A program made the translations under genes and the position numbers. A stretch of 64,000 nucleotides of DNA from Clostridia bacterium. GTDB taxonomy: Bacteria; Bacillota; Clostridia; Oscillospirales; Acutalibacteraceae. Of this stretch, positions 2,692 through 38,794 are shown in pieces (position 1 is the first letter of the stretch; every line of letters starts with the position of its first letter). The stretch spans positions 1 through 64,000 of the forward strand of contig JAFQVM010000006.1 in the NCBI GenBank assembly GCA_017407995.1. Reading direction: 5' to 3'. The notes below the pieces were generated by a model that saw nothing but the letters and a program-made list of their open reading frames with translations, searched no databases and was not told the DNA's origin.

Positions 2692-4023
2692 GTGAACGGA
2701 AGAGTAATAATAGTAGGTGCCAATCAGGCATCGTTGACTCTTGCAGAGTTTCTCGGCAAGGGCGGACTTGATGTATGCGTTTATGAAAAAGAAAAACGTG
2801 AGAATGTGTCATACGATTGGCATGACGATATGCACCCGTCTGTTTTTGATAAGGTCGGAATCCCCATGCCTGACAGTTCAATATATTTTCCCAAAGGCGA
2901 TTGGAGCTTTGTGTCGCCCGATGCAGGGAGTGTTACTCGAATTTATCAGGACAAGGAAAAGGTAGACCTTTCTATTGAACGCCGAAAGCTTAATGACTAT
3001 CTTTATAACCGTGCAAGACAGTATGCACAGTTTTATTATGAAACACCTGTCAGCGGTGTTATAACAGAGGGCGATAAGGTGACAGGCGTTAAACTTCATG
3101 ACGGCACTAAAATCAGTGCTGACCTTGTTGTTGATGTGTCGGGAGCACAGTCTGTGTGCCGCAGCAGTCTGCCTGAAAGCTTACGTATACAGCGTCAAAC
3201 CAATAAAGGCGATTTGTTCAAGGCATACAGAGCTTTTGTAAACCGCACCCCAGGAGTGCCTGCCCCTGAATTGCATACAAATAAAGCATATTTGAAACAC
3301 CTCGGTGAGGCGGGTATATCGTGGTGCATTTGGGACAAGCCGTCCGATACGGTGAATGTGCTTGTAGGCCGTATAGACGAGCTTAAAAAGCAAGATTTAG
3401 ACATAGCATATAAAGCCTTGAGGGAAGATAATCCGATAATCGGTGATGATGTGGTGCGTGGCGGCATAATGTGTACCATTCCTGTCAGACGTCCTATTTC
3501 TAAGATGGTGGCTGACGGTTATGCCCTTTTGGGTGACAGCGCTTTTATGACCATACCTATGCTCGGCAGCGGAATGGCAAGCGGTATAGTGGCGAGCAAA
3601 ATTCTTTCCGAGGTTATTTTACAGCCTTGCGGAGAGCCGTTTTCGGTTGAGAATCTGTACCGTTATCAGGTGCGTTTTATGCGTGAGATGGGGGCTCGCT
3701 TCAGCGGAGTGGAGATGCTTAAAAACTGGCTTCTCAGCGCCCCGTCTGATAAGGTTGCATTCTTGTTTAATGCGGGAGTAATGAGCGAAGAAGATTTAAA
3801 AGTCAGTTGTGTGGGAGAGCTTATAAGGCTGACCCCTGTTTCCATGATACAAAAAGCAATAAAGGGCAGAAAGCAACTTCCTTTACTTATCAAGCTGAGC
3901 ATGCTTTTGATGAGAATAGATAAACAGATAAAAATTGCCGAAAATATACCAGATAAATATGATGAAGATAAATTTGTTGACTGGCAGAAAAAATATTCCA
4001 AGGCATTTGGTACAGAGATTTAA
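2692..4023 (+). CDS. FAD-dependent oxidoreductase (geranylgeranyl reductase / UbiH-like)
   Basis: This protein of about 443 residues has an N-terminal Rossmann strand-loop-helix with a variant dinucleotide motif (VGANQASLTLAEFLG) ending in an acidic residue (YEKE). The downstream FAD contact DGYALLGDSAFMTIP followed by GSGMASG is typical of group A flavin monooxygenases and geranylgeranyl reductases. It probably oxidises or reduces a lipid-like or small organic substrate with FAD; the substrate is unknown. I prefer GTG 2692 as start because GAGGGTG at 2679-2685 sits 6 bases upstream. ATG 2677 overlaps that site. The YibE/F gene follows after 15 bases, so the two are likely co-transcribed. Confidence 0.75.
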   Translation: MNGRVIIVGANQASLTLAEFLGKGGLDVCVYEKEKRENVSYDWHDDMHPSVFDKVGIPMPDSSIYFPKGDWSFVSPDAGSVTRIYQDKEKVDLSIERRKLNDYLYNRARQYAQFYYETPVSGVITEGDKVTGVKLHDGTKISADLVVDVSGAQSVCRSSLPESLRIQRQTNKGDLFKAYRAFVNRTPGVPAPELHTNKAYLKHLGEAGISWCIWDKPSDTVNVLVGRIDELKKQDLDIAYKALREDNPIIGDDVVRGGIMCTIPVRRPISKMVADGYALLGDSAFMTIPMLGSGMASGIVASKILSEVILQPCGEPFSVENLYRYQVRFMREMGARFSGVEMLKNWLLSAPSDKVAFLFNAGVMSEEDLKVSCVGELIRLTPVSMIQKAIKGRKQLPLLIKLSMLLMRIDKQIKIAENIPDKYDEDKFVDWQKKYSKAFGTEI

Positions 4024-32270: not shown

Positions 32271-32423
32271 AATATCACCCCATTTACAAATTATAACACG
32301 AATTAAAAATTTATACAATAAAATAAAAATCGAAGATACTTCGTCGAGCGTTTACAAGATAGTATATTTTTAATCTCACTCTATGAAGCTGTGGCATATC
32401 ATAGGTGGGAGGCGATAAAGTAT

Positions 32424-32906
32424 ATGAGGGAAAGAATTTATGACAGAGTGGCAGCGGTTGCCTATGCACGCAGATGGGCGCTTGACAGAAACACAGCTTA
32501 TTATGATTTTGAAAAGAACGGAGGGGACTGCACGAACTTTGCATCTCAGTGCATATACGCAGGAGTAAAGGCTATGAACTTTACACCTGTTAATGGGTGG
32601 TACTACCGTTCATCCTATGACCGCACGGCTTCATGGAGCGGAGTGGAGTATCTTTATAACTTTCTTATTAACAACAAATCTGTAGGACCGTATGCACACG
32701 TAGTACCGCTTGAGGAAGCGGAGCTTGGAGATATCGTACAGCTCGGAAAGCAGGACGGTGATTTTTATCATACACCGGTCATAACCGCTTTAAAACCGAT
32801 TATATTGGTTGCGGCGCACAGCTACGATGCTTTGGACAGACCTCTGTTCTCGTATAATTACGGTGCAGTGCGTGTTCTTCACATTGACGGTGTGAGAATG
32901 TGGTGA
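32424..32906 (+). CDS. Amidase-like domain protein (Amidase_6 family)
   Basis: This 160-residue protein matches the putative amidase domain found in Firmicutes (YhbB-type). AVAYARRWALDRNTAYYDFE and then GGDCTNFASQCIYAG provide a Cys of a likely Cys-His hydrolase, and HTPVITAL and AAHSYDA provide histidines. Such domains are usually linked to spore or cell-wall peptides. There is no signal peptide, so it is either cytoplasmic or active in the spore compartment. ATG 32424 follows GGGAGG (32407-32412); ATG 32391 is an in-frame alternative upstream. Confidence 0.8.
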   Translation: MRERIYDRVAAVAYARRWALDRNTAYYDFEKNGGDCTNFASQCIYAGVKAMNFTPVNGWYYRSSYDRTASWSGVEYLYNFLINNKSVGPYAHVVPLEEAELGDIVQLGKQDGDFYHTPVITALKPIILVAAHSYDALDRPLFSYNYGAVRVLHIDGVRMW

Positions 32907-32973
32907 GGGGACATTTGTTATAATATTGAATTTGATTTAGTAGCAAAAACAGAAATATTTTTTAATTAATAAC

Positions 32974-33002
32974 TTGCTTTAATTAAAATCGTGTGCTATA
33001 AT
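32974..33002 (+). promoter_or_regulatory. Promoter of the tyrS leader
   Basis: TTGCTT (32974-32979) and extended -10 TGCTATAAT (32994-33002) are spaced by 17 bases. Transcription should start about 20 bases before the leader ATG. Confidence 0.8.
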
Positions 33003-33029
33003 GCGAAAAAACGTGAAAGGTGAACGAAT

Positions 33030-33116
33030 ATGAATTTAACTTTTAAAACAAATTCATATTATTGCGAGTCTGTTTCTTATTATTACGGAAACGGGCTTTG
33101 GCTGCGTTTGTCTTAA
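33030..33116 (+). CDS. Tyr-rich leader peptide of tyrS
   Basis: This 28-codon open frame, too short for normal gene calling, begins MNLTFKTNSYYCESVSYYYG and ends NGLWLRLS. Five codons are Tyr: codons 10, 11, 17, 18 and 19. AAAGGTGA (33015-33022) is a good ribosome site. A strong intrinsic terminator starts 21 bases after the stop and lies before tyrS. By analogy with trp, his and phe leaders, ribosomes should stall at the Tyr codons when charged tRNA-Tyr is scarce. Codons 22-25 (33095-33104) are complementary to the 5' arm of the terminator, as an antiterminator requires. The peptide and pairing are visible; the mechanism is inferred. Confidence 0.8.
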   Translation: MNLTFKTNSYYCESVSYYYGNGLWLRLS

Positions 33117-33173
33117 CGGATATTTCGGGCAAATTACAGACCAAAGCGTAAATGGCTTTGGTCTGATTTTTTT
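33095..33173 (+). promoter_or_regulatory. tyrS transcription attenuator (terminator/antiterminator)
   Basis: Terminator: CAGACCAAAGC (33137-33147) pairs with GCTTTGGTCTG (33155-33165) and is followed by seven T residues (33167-33173). Antiterminator: GCTTTGG-CTG (33095-33104), inside the leader frame, pairs with CAG-A-CCAAAGC (33137-33147) with one bulged A, which blocks the terminator. A ribosome at the stop codon (33114) covers the antiterminator arm. A ribosome stalled at codon 17 leaves it free. Confidence 0.8.
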
Positions 33174-33196
33174 GTTTATTTTGGAGGGTGACAACA

Positions 33197-34351
33197 ATGG
33201 AAACAAAGGAATTTATGAGAATTCTTAAAAGGGATGCAGTATCGATTTACTCGGAGGAGGCGTTGATTCAAAAGCTTGAAAGCACAAAGAGATTGATTAT
33301 CAAGCTTGGCGCAGACCCGAGCCGACCGGATTTGCACCTGGGACATTCGGTTGTTTTGCGTAAACTGCGTATGTTTCAGGAGATGGGACATGAGATAGTA
33401 TTTGTTATCGGTGACTTTACGGGTATGATAGGCGACCCGTCCGGCAAGAGCAAAACGAGAGTGCCGCTGACCTTTGAACAGACCCGTAAAAACGGACAGT
33501 CATACTTTGAGCAGGTTACAAAGATTCTTGATAAGGAAAAGACGAGAATAACCTACAATTCGCAGTGGCTTTCGGATATGAATTTTGCCGATGTGCTGTC
33601 GCTCTGCGGCAAGTACACACTGGCGAGGATAATGGAGCGTGATGATTTTTCAAAGCGTTTTACTGCCAATCAGCCAATCGGAATCCATGAGATTCTGTAT
33701 CCGCTCATGCAGGGCTACGACAGCGTTGCTCTTCACGCTGATATAGAGGTTGGAGGTACAGACCAGACGTTTAATCTGCTTGTCGGCAGGGAGCTGCAAA
33801 AGGATTACGGACAGGAGCAGCAGGTGGTAATAACATTTCCGATTCTGGTCGGTCTTGACGGTGTAGAGAAGATGAGCAAATCACTTGATAATTACATCGG
33901 AATTGACGAGCCTGCCGAGCTTATGTTTGAAAAGTGTATGAAAGTTCCGGACAGTATTTTACCCGATTACTTCCGTCTTACGACCGACATTGAAACTATA
34001 CCTGATGATATCCGTGAGGCACATTTTGTATATGCCAGGGAGATAGTCAGGATGTATCACGGAGAAAGTGCTGTGGAGGAAGCGGAGAACAGATATAGAG
34101 AGGTAGCTAAGGGAAAACTGCCTGAAAATATGGACTCTGTCACTCTCGATAAAGCACCTATTGGTATTATCGAATTGGTCAGAGCTGTAGGCTTTGCCGG
34201 CTCTAACGGCGATGCAAGACGCCTTATTACAGGCAGAGGCATAAAGATAAACGGCGAAACTGTTGAAGATATGTCTCTTGTGATTGACAATCAAGAGGAA
34301 ATCGTATTGAGCAGGGGCAAAAATAAATTTATCAAGGTCTTGTTTGATTAG
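33197..34351 (+). CDS. tyrS: Tyrosyl-tRNA synthetase
   Basis: This 384-residue class I synthetase charges tRNA-Tyr. The HIGH-type motif is DLHLGHSVVL, the second signature is KMSKSLDN, and a C-terminal S4-like RNA-binding domain follows (DARRLITGRGIKINGETVED). I start it at ATG 33197 because GGAGGGTGA (33183-33191) lies 6 bases upstream; the in-frame GTG at 33188 is part of that site. It is controlled by the leader peptide attenuator just upstream, with no T-box elements visible. Confidence 0.96.
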   Translation: METKEFMRILKRDAVSIYSEEALIQKLESTKRLIIKLGADPSRPDLHLGHSVVLRKLRMFQEMGHEIVFVIGDFTGMIGDPSGKSKTRVPLTFEQTRKNGQSYFEQVTKILDKEKTRITYNSQWLSDMNFADVLSLCGKYTLARIMERDDFSKRFTANQPIGIHEILYPLMQGYDSVALHADIEVGGTDQTFNLLVGRELQKDYGQEQQVVITFPILVGLDGVEKMSKSLDNYIGIDEPAELMFEKCMKVPDSILPDYFRLTTDIETIPDDIREAHFVYAREIVRMYHGESAVEEAENRYREVAKGKLPENMDSVTLDKAPIGIIELVRAVGFAGSNGDARRLITGRGIKINGETVEDMSLVIDNQEEIVLSRGKNKFIKVLFD

Positions 34352-34400
34352 TAAAAGTGTGTTAAATTATGACTGATAAATCAATGAGAGGGAGCGGCAA

Positions 34401-35420
34401 ATGAGCAACATCGAGTGGTTTAAAAAAGCTGGATACGGTATGATGGCACATTGGGGTCTATATTCTGTTTTGGGCGGAGAGTGGCGAGGCCGCCATGTAC
34501 TCGACTATGCAGAGTGGATACAGAGCTATATGCCTATCCCGAATGCCGAATACTCAAAGCTTGCGGACGTTTTCAATCCTATATATTTCGATGCGGAAGA
34601 GTGGATTCGTCTTGCAAAGGATTGCGGAATGAAATACTTTGTGTTTACTTCAAAGCACCACGACGGATTTGCTATGTATCATTCAAAAGTTGATTCTTTC
34701 AACGTGGTTGAAGCAACTCCTTTTAAGCGGGATGTTGTCGGAGAGCTTGCAGAGGCATGCTACAAACACGGACTGAAATTCGGTCTTTATTACTCACAGG
34801 AGCTTGACTGGCATCACCCTCATGGCGGCGGATACGATAAGTTTACGGGTTGTTCAGGTGTGTCATGGGATAACAGCTGGGATTTTGCTGACAGAAGTAA
34901 AAAAGACTTTTCAATTTGTTTTGAGGAGAAGATAAAACCGCAAGTCAAAGAGCTTTTAACAGAATACGGCGATTTGTGTTTGATGTGGTTTGACGTTCCG
35001 CATACGATAACACCTGAGCAAAGCCTTGAGCTTAATCACCTTGTCAAGGAATATCAGCCGAATTGTCTGATAAACTCACGCATCGGCAACGGTGCATATG
35101 ATTATGTTTCGCTGGGCGATAACGAATATCCGTCTGAGCGTGCACAGGCAGACGAAAATACCGACCCCAACAGCCTTGACGGTTTTAAGGTCTCGCCTTA
35201 CGGTTTGTATGAGACGGCGGGAACACTCAACAGTTCATGGGGCTATAAGTATTATGACAACAATTGGGTAACTCCTGAAGAAATAGCTCAGCGCCGATTT
35301 AAGCTTAACGAGTTGGGTATCAACTATCTGTTGAATGTGGGACCTGATGCCTTGGGACGAATACCTGCAAAGTCGGTTGAAGTTCTGAAGAGAGCGGCTG
35401 AGATTGTTGATAAACGATAA
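34401..35420 (+). CDS. Alpha-L-fucosidase-like glycoside hydrolase, family 29
   Basis: This 339-residue protein contains the GH29 catalytic barrel: FKKAGYGMMAHWGLYSVLGG, VFTSKHHDGFAMY, and the probable nucleophile Asp in LCLMWFDVPH. It ends just after LNVGPDALGRIP, so the C-terminal beta-sandwich common in longer fucosidases is absent. There is no signal peptide; it acts on imported fucosides or similar sugars. GAGAGGGAGC precedes ATG 34401. It follows tyrS by 49 bases and may be partly read through from it. Substrate specificity is not fixed by the sequence. Confidence 0.88.
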   Translation: MSNIEWFKKAGYGMMAHWGLYSVLGGEWRGRHVLDYAEWIQSYMPIPNAEYSKLADVFNPIYFDAEEWIRLAKDCGMKYFVFTSKHHDGFAMYHSKVDSFNVVEATPFKRDVVGELAEACYKHGLKFGLYYSQELDWHHPHGGGYDKFTGCSGVSWDNSWDFADRSKKDFSICFEEKIKPQVKELLTEYGDLCLMWFDVPHTITPEQSLELNHLVKEYQPNCLINSRIGNGAYDYVSLGDNEYPSERAQADENTDPNSLDGFKVSPYGLYETAGTLNSSWGYKYYDNNWVTPEEIAQRRFKLNELGINYLLNVGPDALGRIPAKSVEVLKRAAEIVDKR

Positions 35421-35474: not shown

Positions 35475-35966
35475 TTATTCAGCAGCTTCTTCGGGGATAT
35501 CGCTTGTGCAGTTGGGACACTTGACAGCGGCGATATCAATTTCGCTGCAGCAGAAAGGACATTTCTTTGTAGTTGCGGGAGCGGGCTCTTCTTCTTCCTT
35601 TTCCTTGGAGAGCTTAGTCTTCATTACAGCCATGACCTTTATCACAACGAAGATAGACAGTGCGATAAGAACGAAATCGAGAATGGTCTGAATGAAGTTG
35701 CCGTAGTTGAAAGTGGCGAAGCCTGCCTCTGTTGCGAGAGCAGGAGTTGTCATTGTTGCGGGGTCAAAGCCTGTCTTGTCGCCGAGGACAACAAACATAT
35801 CCTTGAGACTGCCGCCGCCTGTGAGAAGTCCTACAAGGGGCATAATCAAGTCGGATACGAGCGAAGTGACGATTTTGCCGAAAGCACCGCCGACTACAAC
35901 GCCGACTGCCATGTCTACTACATTGCCTTTTGAAATAAACTCTTTGAACTCTTTTACAAATTTCAT
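35475..35966 (-). CDS. mscL: Large-conductance mechanosensitive channel MscL with C-terminal zinc ribbon
   Basis: This 163-residue protein is longer than typical MscL (about 120-150 residues). The channel part has the family N-terminus FVKEFKEFISKGNVVDMAVG, the pore helix VVVGGAFGKIVTSLVSDLI, a periplasmic loop and a second membrane helix. After the basic helix TKLSKEKEEEEPAPATTKK comes a zinc ribbon, CPFCCSEI and CPNCTSDI. MscL releases solutes when membrane tension rises. The added ribbon sits on the cytoplasmic bundle and could bind metal or a partner. The ribosome site before ATG 35966 is GGATGTGATACT-like and weak. Confidence 0.93.
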   Translation of the reverse strand: MKFVKEFKEFISKGNVVDMAVGVVVGGAFGKIVTSLVSDLIMPLVGLLTGGGSLKDMFVVLGDKTGFDPATMTTPALATEAGFATFNYGNFIQTILDFVLIALSIFVVIKVMAVMKTKLSKEKEEEEPAPATTKKCPFCCSEIDIAAVKCPNCTSDIPEEAAE

Positions 35967-36052: not shown

Positions 36053-36547
36053 ATGCATGAACTTCAATTTCATACATTTGAGCCGATATTTAATGAGGAT
36101 TCAAAAATTCTGGTGCTCGGCACATTTCCGTCTGTGAAGTCACGTGAACAGGGCTTTTATTACGGCCATGCACAAAACAGATTTTGGCGAGTGGTGTCTC
36201 AGCTGCTGGGTGTATCGACTCCGCAGTGCATAGACGAAAAGCGTGATATGCTGCTTAAAAATAATATAGCTCTTTGGGATGTTGCGGCAAGCTGTGAGAT
36301 AGTGGGGTCAAGCGACAGCAGCATGAAAAATGTAAGGGCAAATGATATCGAAAGGATACTTTCAGCCGCTGAGATAGGACGTGTGTTTGCAAACGGAAAA
36401 ACAGCGGCACGGCTTTATGAGAGATTGATATATCCTAAAAGCGGAGTCCCGATTTATACTTTGCCGTCTACAAGTCCTGCGAACGCTTCATACAGTCTTG
36501 AACGCCTTATAGAGGAATGGAGTGTTATATTGCCGTTTATAAAGTAA
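36053..36547 (+). CDS. DNA glycosylase of the uracil/hypoxanthine-DNA glycosylase superfamily
   Basis: This 164-residue protein carries the superfamily motif 1 LVLGTFPS and motif 2 LPSTSPANA. These fit the family 6 hypoxanthine-DNA glycosylase branch rather than classic Ung. It would excise deaminated bases such as hypoxanthine from DNA in base excision repair. YGHAQNRFWRVVSQLLG is another conserved part. AGAAAGGGA precedes ATG 36053. It is a single gene with a terminator downstream. Confidence 0.85.
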   Translation: MHELQFHTFEPIFNEDSKILVLGTFPSVKSREQGFYYGHAQNRFWRVVSQLLGVSTPQCIDEKRDMLLKNNIALWDVAASCEIVGSSDSSMKNVRANDIERILSAAEIGRVFANGKTAARLYERLIYPKSGVPIYTLPSTSPANASYSLERLIEEWSVILPFIK

Positions 36548-38544: not shown

Positions 38545-38785
38545 TGAAAAAAAGCTTCACCCCTCCTGATAAAGGGATGAAGCTAATGCTCCACGGTTCC
38601 ACCCAATTTGCGGCTAACGCCGCCACTCTGAGACCTTAACGCAGTCATACGTCGCAGCCTATCCCGACGGGCTTCGGTGCGCACTCAGCAGCGGTAATTC
38701 ATTTCTGCTCCCGCAGACGCTTTCAGCCCATGACGTCCGCTCTCTTGGAGAGTGTTGTGAAATAAATCTTCTGCTTCACAGCTTT
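38545..38785 (-). promoter_or_regulatory. T-box leader of thrS (Thr specifier ACC)
   Basis: On the minus strand the core T-box GGGTGGAACCGTGG lies at 38591-38604. It is followed by the terminator stem 38553-38564 with 38573-38584 and a run of T. Stem I is visible upstream, with the base pair block CACTC/GAGTG, the AGAGAG motif and the GGCTGAAAGC distal part. A specifier loop shows ACC (Thr) at 38693-38695. Uncharged tRNA-Thr(GGT) should stabilise the antiterminator. Confidence 0.93.
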
Positions 38786-38794
38786 ATTAAAACT

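Follow-up and report, generated by a model that had tools for sequence, protein, structure and literature searches.

The question raised by this locus is whether the tyrosyl-tRNA synthetase gene tyrS of a clostridial genome, lying in the 64,000-nucleotide stretch of DNA analysed here (the window), is governed by a Tyr-rich leader peptide and ribosome-mediated attenuation, as was proposed in an earlier note made from the sequence alone. That reading is supported by the relatives: the same anatomy precedes the tyrS genes of one TyrS clade in nine of the 38 loci examined, namely the window and loci from eight further genomes. A trp-type ribosome-mediated transcription attenuator that would sense charged tRNA-Tyr and control tyrS is considered the correct reading with a probability of about 0.9, and the strong evidence for it is comparative rather than contained in the window locus alone.

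Leader frame, terminator and alternative arms at the window locus

The tyrS gene (33197..34351, forward strand) encodes a tyrosyl-tRNA synthetase of 384 amino acids from its ATG, recognised by NCBIfam TIGR00234 at 355 bits, and a possible GTG start is present in the ORF list three codons 5' of the ATG at 33197. The closest solved structures are tyrosyl-tRNA synthetases, with 1h3e as the best, and the gene is the only copy found in its genome, which is 86% complete. The neighbouring genes, assigned by Pfam, encode an Amidase_6 protein (32391-32906, forward), an alpha-L-fucosidase (34401-35420, forward), MscL (35475-35966, reverse) and a uracil-DNA-glycosylase-like protein (36053-36547, forward).

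Upstream of tyrS, the 28-codon frame described in the earlier note was confirmed at 33030..33116 on the forward strand, from its sequence and from relatives. It starts with ATG, encodes MNLTFKTNSYYCESVSYYYGNGLWLRLS and contains five Tyr codons, at positions 10 and 11 (33057..33062) and, consecutively, at positions 17, 18 and 19 (33078..33086). The promoter and ribosome site claimed for it are also present on the forward strand, judged by motifs that we take to be those of promoters and Shine-Dalgarno sequences: TTGCTT (-35, 32974-32979) and TATAAT (-10, 32997-33002) are separated by 17 nt, with an extended -10 (TGC), and this element (32974..33002) ends 27 nt 5' of the leader start, followed by a Shine-Dalgarno-like AAGGTG at 33017..33022. 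A mechanical scan did not report this promoter, the -35 fitting in 3 of 6 positions where the scan threshold was 4. A chance ORF was rejected as the source of the Tyr-rich frame, as among the 816 mechanical ORFs of 15-45 amino acids in the window five have at least five Tyr and two have YYY, and the leader ORF is the sole one with both.

The intrinsic terminator expected between leader and tyrS was found by scanning, and is supported by covariation, at 33137..33173 on the forward strand, 20 nt 3' of the leader stop. Its stem (33137-33165) has 11 pairs, six of them G-C, and a 7-nt loop, followed by an A and seven T residues (ATTTTTTT). Folding assigns the 5' arm of this terminator (arm 3, 33137..33147, forward) an alternative partner inside the leader ORF, the predicted antiterminator arm 2 GGGCTTTGGCTG (33093..33104, forward), which consists of a core at 33095-33104 and a lone pair at 33093; the pairing of 33095-33104 with 33137-33147 noted earlier thus exists, with one bulged A. 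In addition, a 1:2 (protector) hairpin is predicted at 33064..33102 on the forward strand, in which 33064-33077 pairs with 33087-33098 and 33101-33102, and the three control Tyr codons 17-19 form exactly its loop. This hairpin has a z of -2.87, with 11 of 1000 dinucleotide shuffles as stable.

The same features allow another reading, in which a plain constitutive attenuator, or the end of an upstream transcript, accounts for the terminator, and the Tyr-rich ORF arose by chance or is not translated. Terminator-like sites of such a score are indeed common, with two found in 32400-35000 against 2.0 expected from shuffles, and in one relative (G659) such a hairpin precedes tyrS with no Tyr leader present. 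However, the position of the leader ORF as the only one among 816 with five Tyr and YYY, the promoter-like pairs 26-44 nt 5' of the ORF in eight of the nine loci, and the recurrence in all nine of clustered Tyr codons with like spacing of the arms and of the terminator make this reading improbable.

In these bacteria, the task of sensing tyrosine supply often falls to a T-box RNA, and tyrS is named as a T-box gene in a T-box survey (PMC2494555). T-box tyrS leaders (RF00230) share with the present locus the output gene, the signal (tRNA-Tyr charging) and their occurrence in Firmicutes, but their RNA binds the tRNA directly and no leader ORF is needed. The expectation that Firmicute tyrS genes usually have a T-box held in some relatives only: for the other tyrS type of the genus, Rfam placed a T-box upstream in only four of the 20 loci tested (29 fetched), and among 20 loci of the window-type tyrS set it found one only at L112. 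A divergent T-box, sensing uncharged tRNA-Tyr with no need for translation, would be in line with the T-boxes before tyrS in those relatives, but no T-box motif lies upstream of the window tyrS, and promoter and T-tract span about 165 nt, whereas the model has 219 positions. Furthermore, the only match at the gathering cutoff in the window belongs to thrS, with none at E values up to 10 over 32900-33300, so this explanation is held to be very remote. The T-box reported before thrS (38570-38788, reverse strand) is real but borderline, at 93.4 bits where the Rfam cutoff is 93. With Rfam 15, neither a leader family nor a T-box was found at the window tyrS site, and four matches to known families (mir-2329 twice, IS128 and rpsL_pseudo) were rejected, all lying at 12-15 bits and far below the cutoff.

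Distribution of the leader in one TyrS clade

In the TyrS tree, which was built without L162, L177 and L179 (incomplete), G659 and G705, the window-type TyrS sequences together with L005, L006, L111 and G598 form one clade of 36 rows with support of 100/100. The order and class samples contributed 23 and 9 further genomes with more than 60% identity to the window TyrS over most of its length, the sampled class being taken as Clostridia, and the TyrS of G659 from the class sample is 71% identical to it over 202 residues. Five further-centre searches (11, 1, 4, 1 and 3 genomes) added no locus. An outgroup tyrS, in G705, is preceded by a T-box motif. Near the clade tyrS at L144 (G200), a THF riboswitch lies at 3570-3665 on the reverse strand.

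The nine carriers of a Tyr leader with a terminator are the window, L167/G583 (identical to L003), L163/G587 (identical to L004), L111/G052, L156/G241, L165/G594, L168/G700, G598 (L205, L231) and G762 (L203, L232); the upstream regions of L003, L004 and L002 are identical to those of L167, L163 and L144, and each was counted once. The leaders are MKKRSLESNGSRAYVYAYSYYYGSGLGSPLPYGTGCFM in L167, MNDILLKVIYYYLPVYPNRPGLLRPFSRG in L163, MRNFNMTNSYSSYSSVSSYRNGLSAYVSRTNACIRGMS in L111 (with a GTG start), MRQFDMTNSYYYSYSSVVYYHNGLSLYMRN in L156, MNQFLLVMIRAYQSESVSYYYGDRLGLLLQK in L165, MAVNRQHSSNMYYYNYYYLNRLGLLLS in L168, MAASMQNNTYTHQYNYYYKSRLELLLS in G598 and MAAVNNKAYTYQYYYYYVNRLELLLS in G762. Over the nine leaders, 49 of 274 codons are Tyr, with four to seven Tyr per leader and lengths of 26-38 amino acids; the L111 leader has only four Tyr in 38 residues, and Ser outnumbers Tyr in it. 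All nine have a short ORF in which Tyr codons cluster and which has initiation signals. The promoter-like pair lies 26-44 nt 5' of the leader start in eight, by eye in L163, and in L167 the promoter is 9 nt from the start codon, without room for a Shine-Dalgarno sequence. An intrinsic terminator lies between leader and tyrS in each, with the tyrS of G762 on another contig.

Residues round the Tyr run recur between leaders (SVSYYYGNGL, SVSYYYGDRLG, YSYYYGSGLG), as they might if the ORF encoded a small functional peptide whose position before tyrS is incidental. Against this, the codons that recur 3' of the Tyr run are those forming arm 2, and beyond the Tyr run and these codons the sequences vary widely over 26-38 amino acids, and a functional peptide is hardly credible here.

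Relatives that keep tyrS without the Tyr leader, named in the earlier note as evidence against its reading, make up the other 29 of the 38 clade loci, mostly with another arrangement in its place. In 20 of the 38, by a mechanical count, tyrS is preceded at no more than 125 nt by the end of a stop-to-stop open frame that is 80 codons or longer. A T-box motif, by pattern match only, precedes tyrS in two (L006 and L170), a Tyr-rich ORF without a terminator in one (L164), and a terminator-like hairpin with a U-tract in one (G659), where an unrelated open frame occupies the place of the leader; nothing was recognised upstream of tyrS in five (L005, L141, L143, L158 and L161). We infer that the absence of the leader in part of the clade reflects replacement of the regulator. 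G659 belongs to the clade, being 89% identical to the carrier L156 over 202 amino acids (L234, G659:C242, before 3456), and its arrangement suggests either a recent loss of the leader or a chimeric contig.

At L193/L164 (G643), about 87 nt before tyrS, a promoter-proximal ORF of 24 codons with five Tyr, MYMYRNYAPIDCYIIDSYINADRG, runs into the Shine-Dalgarno region of tyrS. This ORF may be a counterpart of the Tyr sensor that acts on translation. It ends 6-12 nt before possible tyrS starts, and no terminator was seen there, which fits an account in which the leader in general couples or blocks translation of tyrS, by reinitiation or otherwise, with no terminator switch. Yet a U-tract intrinsic terminator follows the leader in nine loci, together with a matching arm, and translational control of this kind is rated as even less probable than a constitutive terminator.

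The association with tyrS was also recovered by a search that made no use of tyrS. A covariance model (R1) was built from seven loci and run on 391 class genomes; its variable linker was masked with N because a plain MAFFT alignment from leader to terminator misplaced the terminators. Seven genomes scored above 50 bits, comprising five training members and the two later loci G598 and G762; in six of the seven, tyrS comes directly after the match, and the match in G762 is followed by an intron-like sequence. A tRNA-Pro followed by a hairpin gave the next-best match, at 36 bits, and was rejected; the six matches at or below 36 bits that were inspected (L206-L209 and contigs C10 and C19 of the window genome) look like gene ends, a tRNA or chance hairpins. 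In a phylum sample of 398 genomes, only the window genome reached E = 1e-4.

In G598, leader and terminator are followed by the first 109 codons of tyrS and then by the contig end. One contig of G762 ends with leader and terminator, and the sequence after the T-tract resembles by eye the 5' end of a group II intron, with no Rfam match to it. The contig with tyrS starts in a reverse-transcriptase-like frame (by eye) and has a match to the group II intron family RF00029 just before tyrS. A group II intron probably splits the terminator from tyrS in this genome. Contigs L192 (G762:C24) and L232 (G762:C39, last ~65 bases) end at or in the apparent intron directly 3' of the T-tract.

Geometry, folding and the proposed switch

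When Tyr-tRNA is plentiful, the ribosome would pass the Tyr codons and reach the leader stop; arm 2 would then be covered, or held by arm 1, and the 3:4 terminator would form and end transcription short of tyrS. Under a shortage of Tyr-tRNA, the ribosome is expected to stall on the clustered Tyr codons, with one of them in the A site, leaving arm 2 free to pair with arm 3 once this has been made, and the resulting 2:3 helix would block the terminator and allow tyrS to be transcribed.

The geometry of the nine loci is consistent with this attenuator. In each, the predicted arm 2 lies downstream of the control codons and is complementary to the 5' arm of the terminator, with a 2:3 helix of 9-13 bp. 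Between arm 2 and the nearest Tyr codon 5' of it lie 6-8 nt in all nine, as measured with the folded segment started 3 nt 3' of that codon. This places the start of arm 2 approximately at the front edge of a ribosome stalled on the codon. In L163 and L111, the Tyr codon before arm 2 is single and not part of a run. The predicted 1:2 hairpin has a nine-base loop of exactly three Tyr codons in L165 as in the window, and a six-base loop of two Tyr codons in L156.

The leader stop lies 17-31 nt from the terminator stem in the nine loci. For comparison, 20 of the 57 kept ORFs of the window end with a terminator within 120 nt, and in eight of these 20 the stem starts within 12 nt of the stop, a distance at which it would be disturbed by a closely trailing ribosome; all nine leader stops keep at least 17 nt. 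The claim that a ribosome at the stop codon hides the arm fits six of nine loci, where arm 2 ends 6-10 nt from the stop codon, but not for L167, L163 and L111, where the distances are 26, 21 and 37 nt. In these three longer leaders, arm 2 would be uncovered with a ribosome at the stop, so termination under Tyr-replete conditions would have to depend either on timing or on the 1:2 hairpin, and this hairpin lacks support in L167.

Both alternative structures were folded, a check proposed in the earlier note. For the seven loci found first, the stretch that a stalled ribosome would expose forms 2:3 as long as arm 4 has not been made, but once this stretch is complete the lowest energy belongs to the terminator, in seven of seven loci for a stall at the last Tyr codon and in five of seven for a stall two codons earlier. 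The switch would therefore need co-transcriptional timing.

The exposed 2:3 segment of the window has a z of -3.28, with 3 of 1000 dinucleotide shuffles as stable. With 1000 shuffles each, the values are -1.44 in L167, where the energy signal is weak, -3.80 in L163, -3.96 in L111, -4.34 in L156, -2.32 in L165 and -3.36 in L168, and the two later loci gave -3.43 (G598) and -3.51 (G762). Combined over the seven first-found loci, which are related and not independent, the Stouffer value is -8.5. The number of 2:3 pairs alone says less, being matched by 80 of 1000 shuffles in the window and reached by 29 to 240 of 1000 across loci. The bare duplex between leader and terminator 5' arm is at chance in three of seven loci and only moderately unusual in the window: of 2000 shuffles, 37 were as strong in the window, 694 in L167, 54 in L163, 947 in L111, 1033 in L156, 23 in L165 and 3 in L168. 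The 1:2 segment is not above chance by shuffles in L167 (z 0.26) and L168 (0.45), and in the other five of the seven its z ranges from -1.92 to -4.19 (L163 -1.92, L111 -2.60, the window at the value given above, L156 -3.67, L165 -4.19).

Covariation is clear for the terminator. In the 3:4 stem, 96% of cells are paired and 10 of 11 pairs have changed on both sides, with 0 of 500 shuffles as high, a count that leans upward as the alignment was fitted to this stem. The 2:3 pairing is conserved, with 82.7% of cells paired against 16.2-55.1% for slid controls, a share reached by 32 of 500 column shuffles; its covariation is weak and not above column shuffles, with two pairs changed on both sides and 313 of 500 shuffles matching. 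L111 and L156 pair in another register. The weak covariation may be due to the coding function of arm 2, which would limit its freedom to change. In an arm-swap test, cognate 2:3 arms paired better than non-cognate ones at p = 0.014 for nine loci and 0.074 for the six less-related ones, and the same test of 1:2 was not significant (p = 0.18 and 0.13, respectively); this test was weak, possibly since the arms resemble one another across loci and vary in G+C.

Related systems and history of the leader

Leader-peptide attenuators of the trp, his and phe type are well known from Proteobacteria, for example trpL of Escherichia coli and pheM, which precedes the synthetase genes pheST. The locus described here has the same parts, with a cluster of cognate codons in a leader ORF, a 2:3 antiterminator, a 3:4 terminator and predicted stall-dependent readthrough, but it involves Tyr, tyrS and another phylum, and neither a sequence relation nor a match to an Rfam leader family was found. 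In B. subtilis, transcription is uncoupled from translation.

In Firmicutes, two hisS paralogs of bacilli have been described as carrying a His leader peptide (PMC2965389), as have the his operons of some species, including C. difficile (PMC9413887). In these cases, too, a leader peptide replaces a T-box and synthetase paralogs carry a leader, but the codons are His and the genes and lineages are others. Translated leaders predicted to attenuate aminoacyl-tRNA synthetase genes are likewise described, as uORFC-8-2 before cysS in Rhodobacterales (PMC8632094) and before leuS and trpS in Streptomyces (PMC1262725); these differ in sensing Cys, Leu and Trp and in belonging to Alphaproteobacteria and Actinobacteria. 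Ribosome-mediated attenuation in B. subtilis has been reported for bmrCD (PMC4191407), and a tyrosine-regulated tyrS of Enterococcus durans is the subject of PMC3315439. The mechanism itself is known; no Tyr leader for tyrS was found among the literature matches listed, which took in few subscription journals.

Leaders occur in both halves of the TyrS clade, on branches with support of 96/70 and 94/90. If only the rows with a leader or a T-box are considered, leaving out 45 other rows, two changes suffice on the tree, which is midpoint-rooted, and the order of events is not pressed. An old leader with repeated replacement and a transfer of the leader together with tyrS would both fit. Since leaders stand on both sides of the deepest split of the clade, under a midpoint root and with moderate branch support, the Tyr leader may be the old regulator of this clostridial clade, displaced repeatedly by T-boxes or by transcription running on from a gene upstream, a history proposed tentatively and at somewhat less than even odds. 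If such an old leader has persisted, transcription and translation in such Clostridia would be coupled closely enough for a trp-type switch.

If the attenuator is confirmed, tyrosine would join the amino acids sensed by leader-peptide attenuation, and a synthetase gene would carry a leader switch in Clostridia, a group in which a T-box would be the expectation. One gene clade in which some members have a leader peptide, others a T-box motif and others neither of them would make the exchange of regulators traceable, and the locus would offer a natural test of whether ribosomes keep up with RNA polymerase in such bacteria.

Both in its own genus and in its family, the window TyrS type is rare. 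A match to the window TyrS was obtained in 37 of 44 other genomes of the genus, all at a far level, with long matches at 27-31% identity, and in a family sample of 150 a closer match was found in three other genomes, G052 (65%), G182 (50%) and G089 (45-56%, in two pieces). The window genome seems to have swapped the usual tyrS of the genus for this distant type, and G052, G182 and G089 carry both types.
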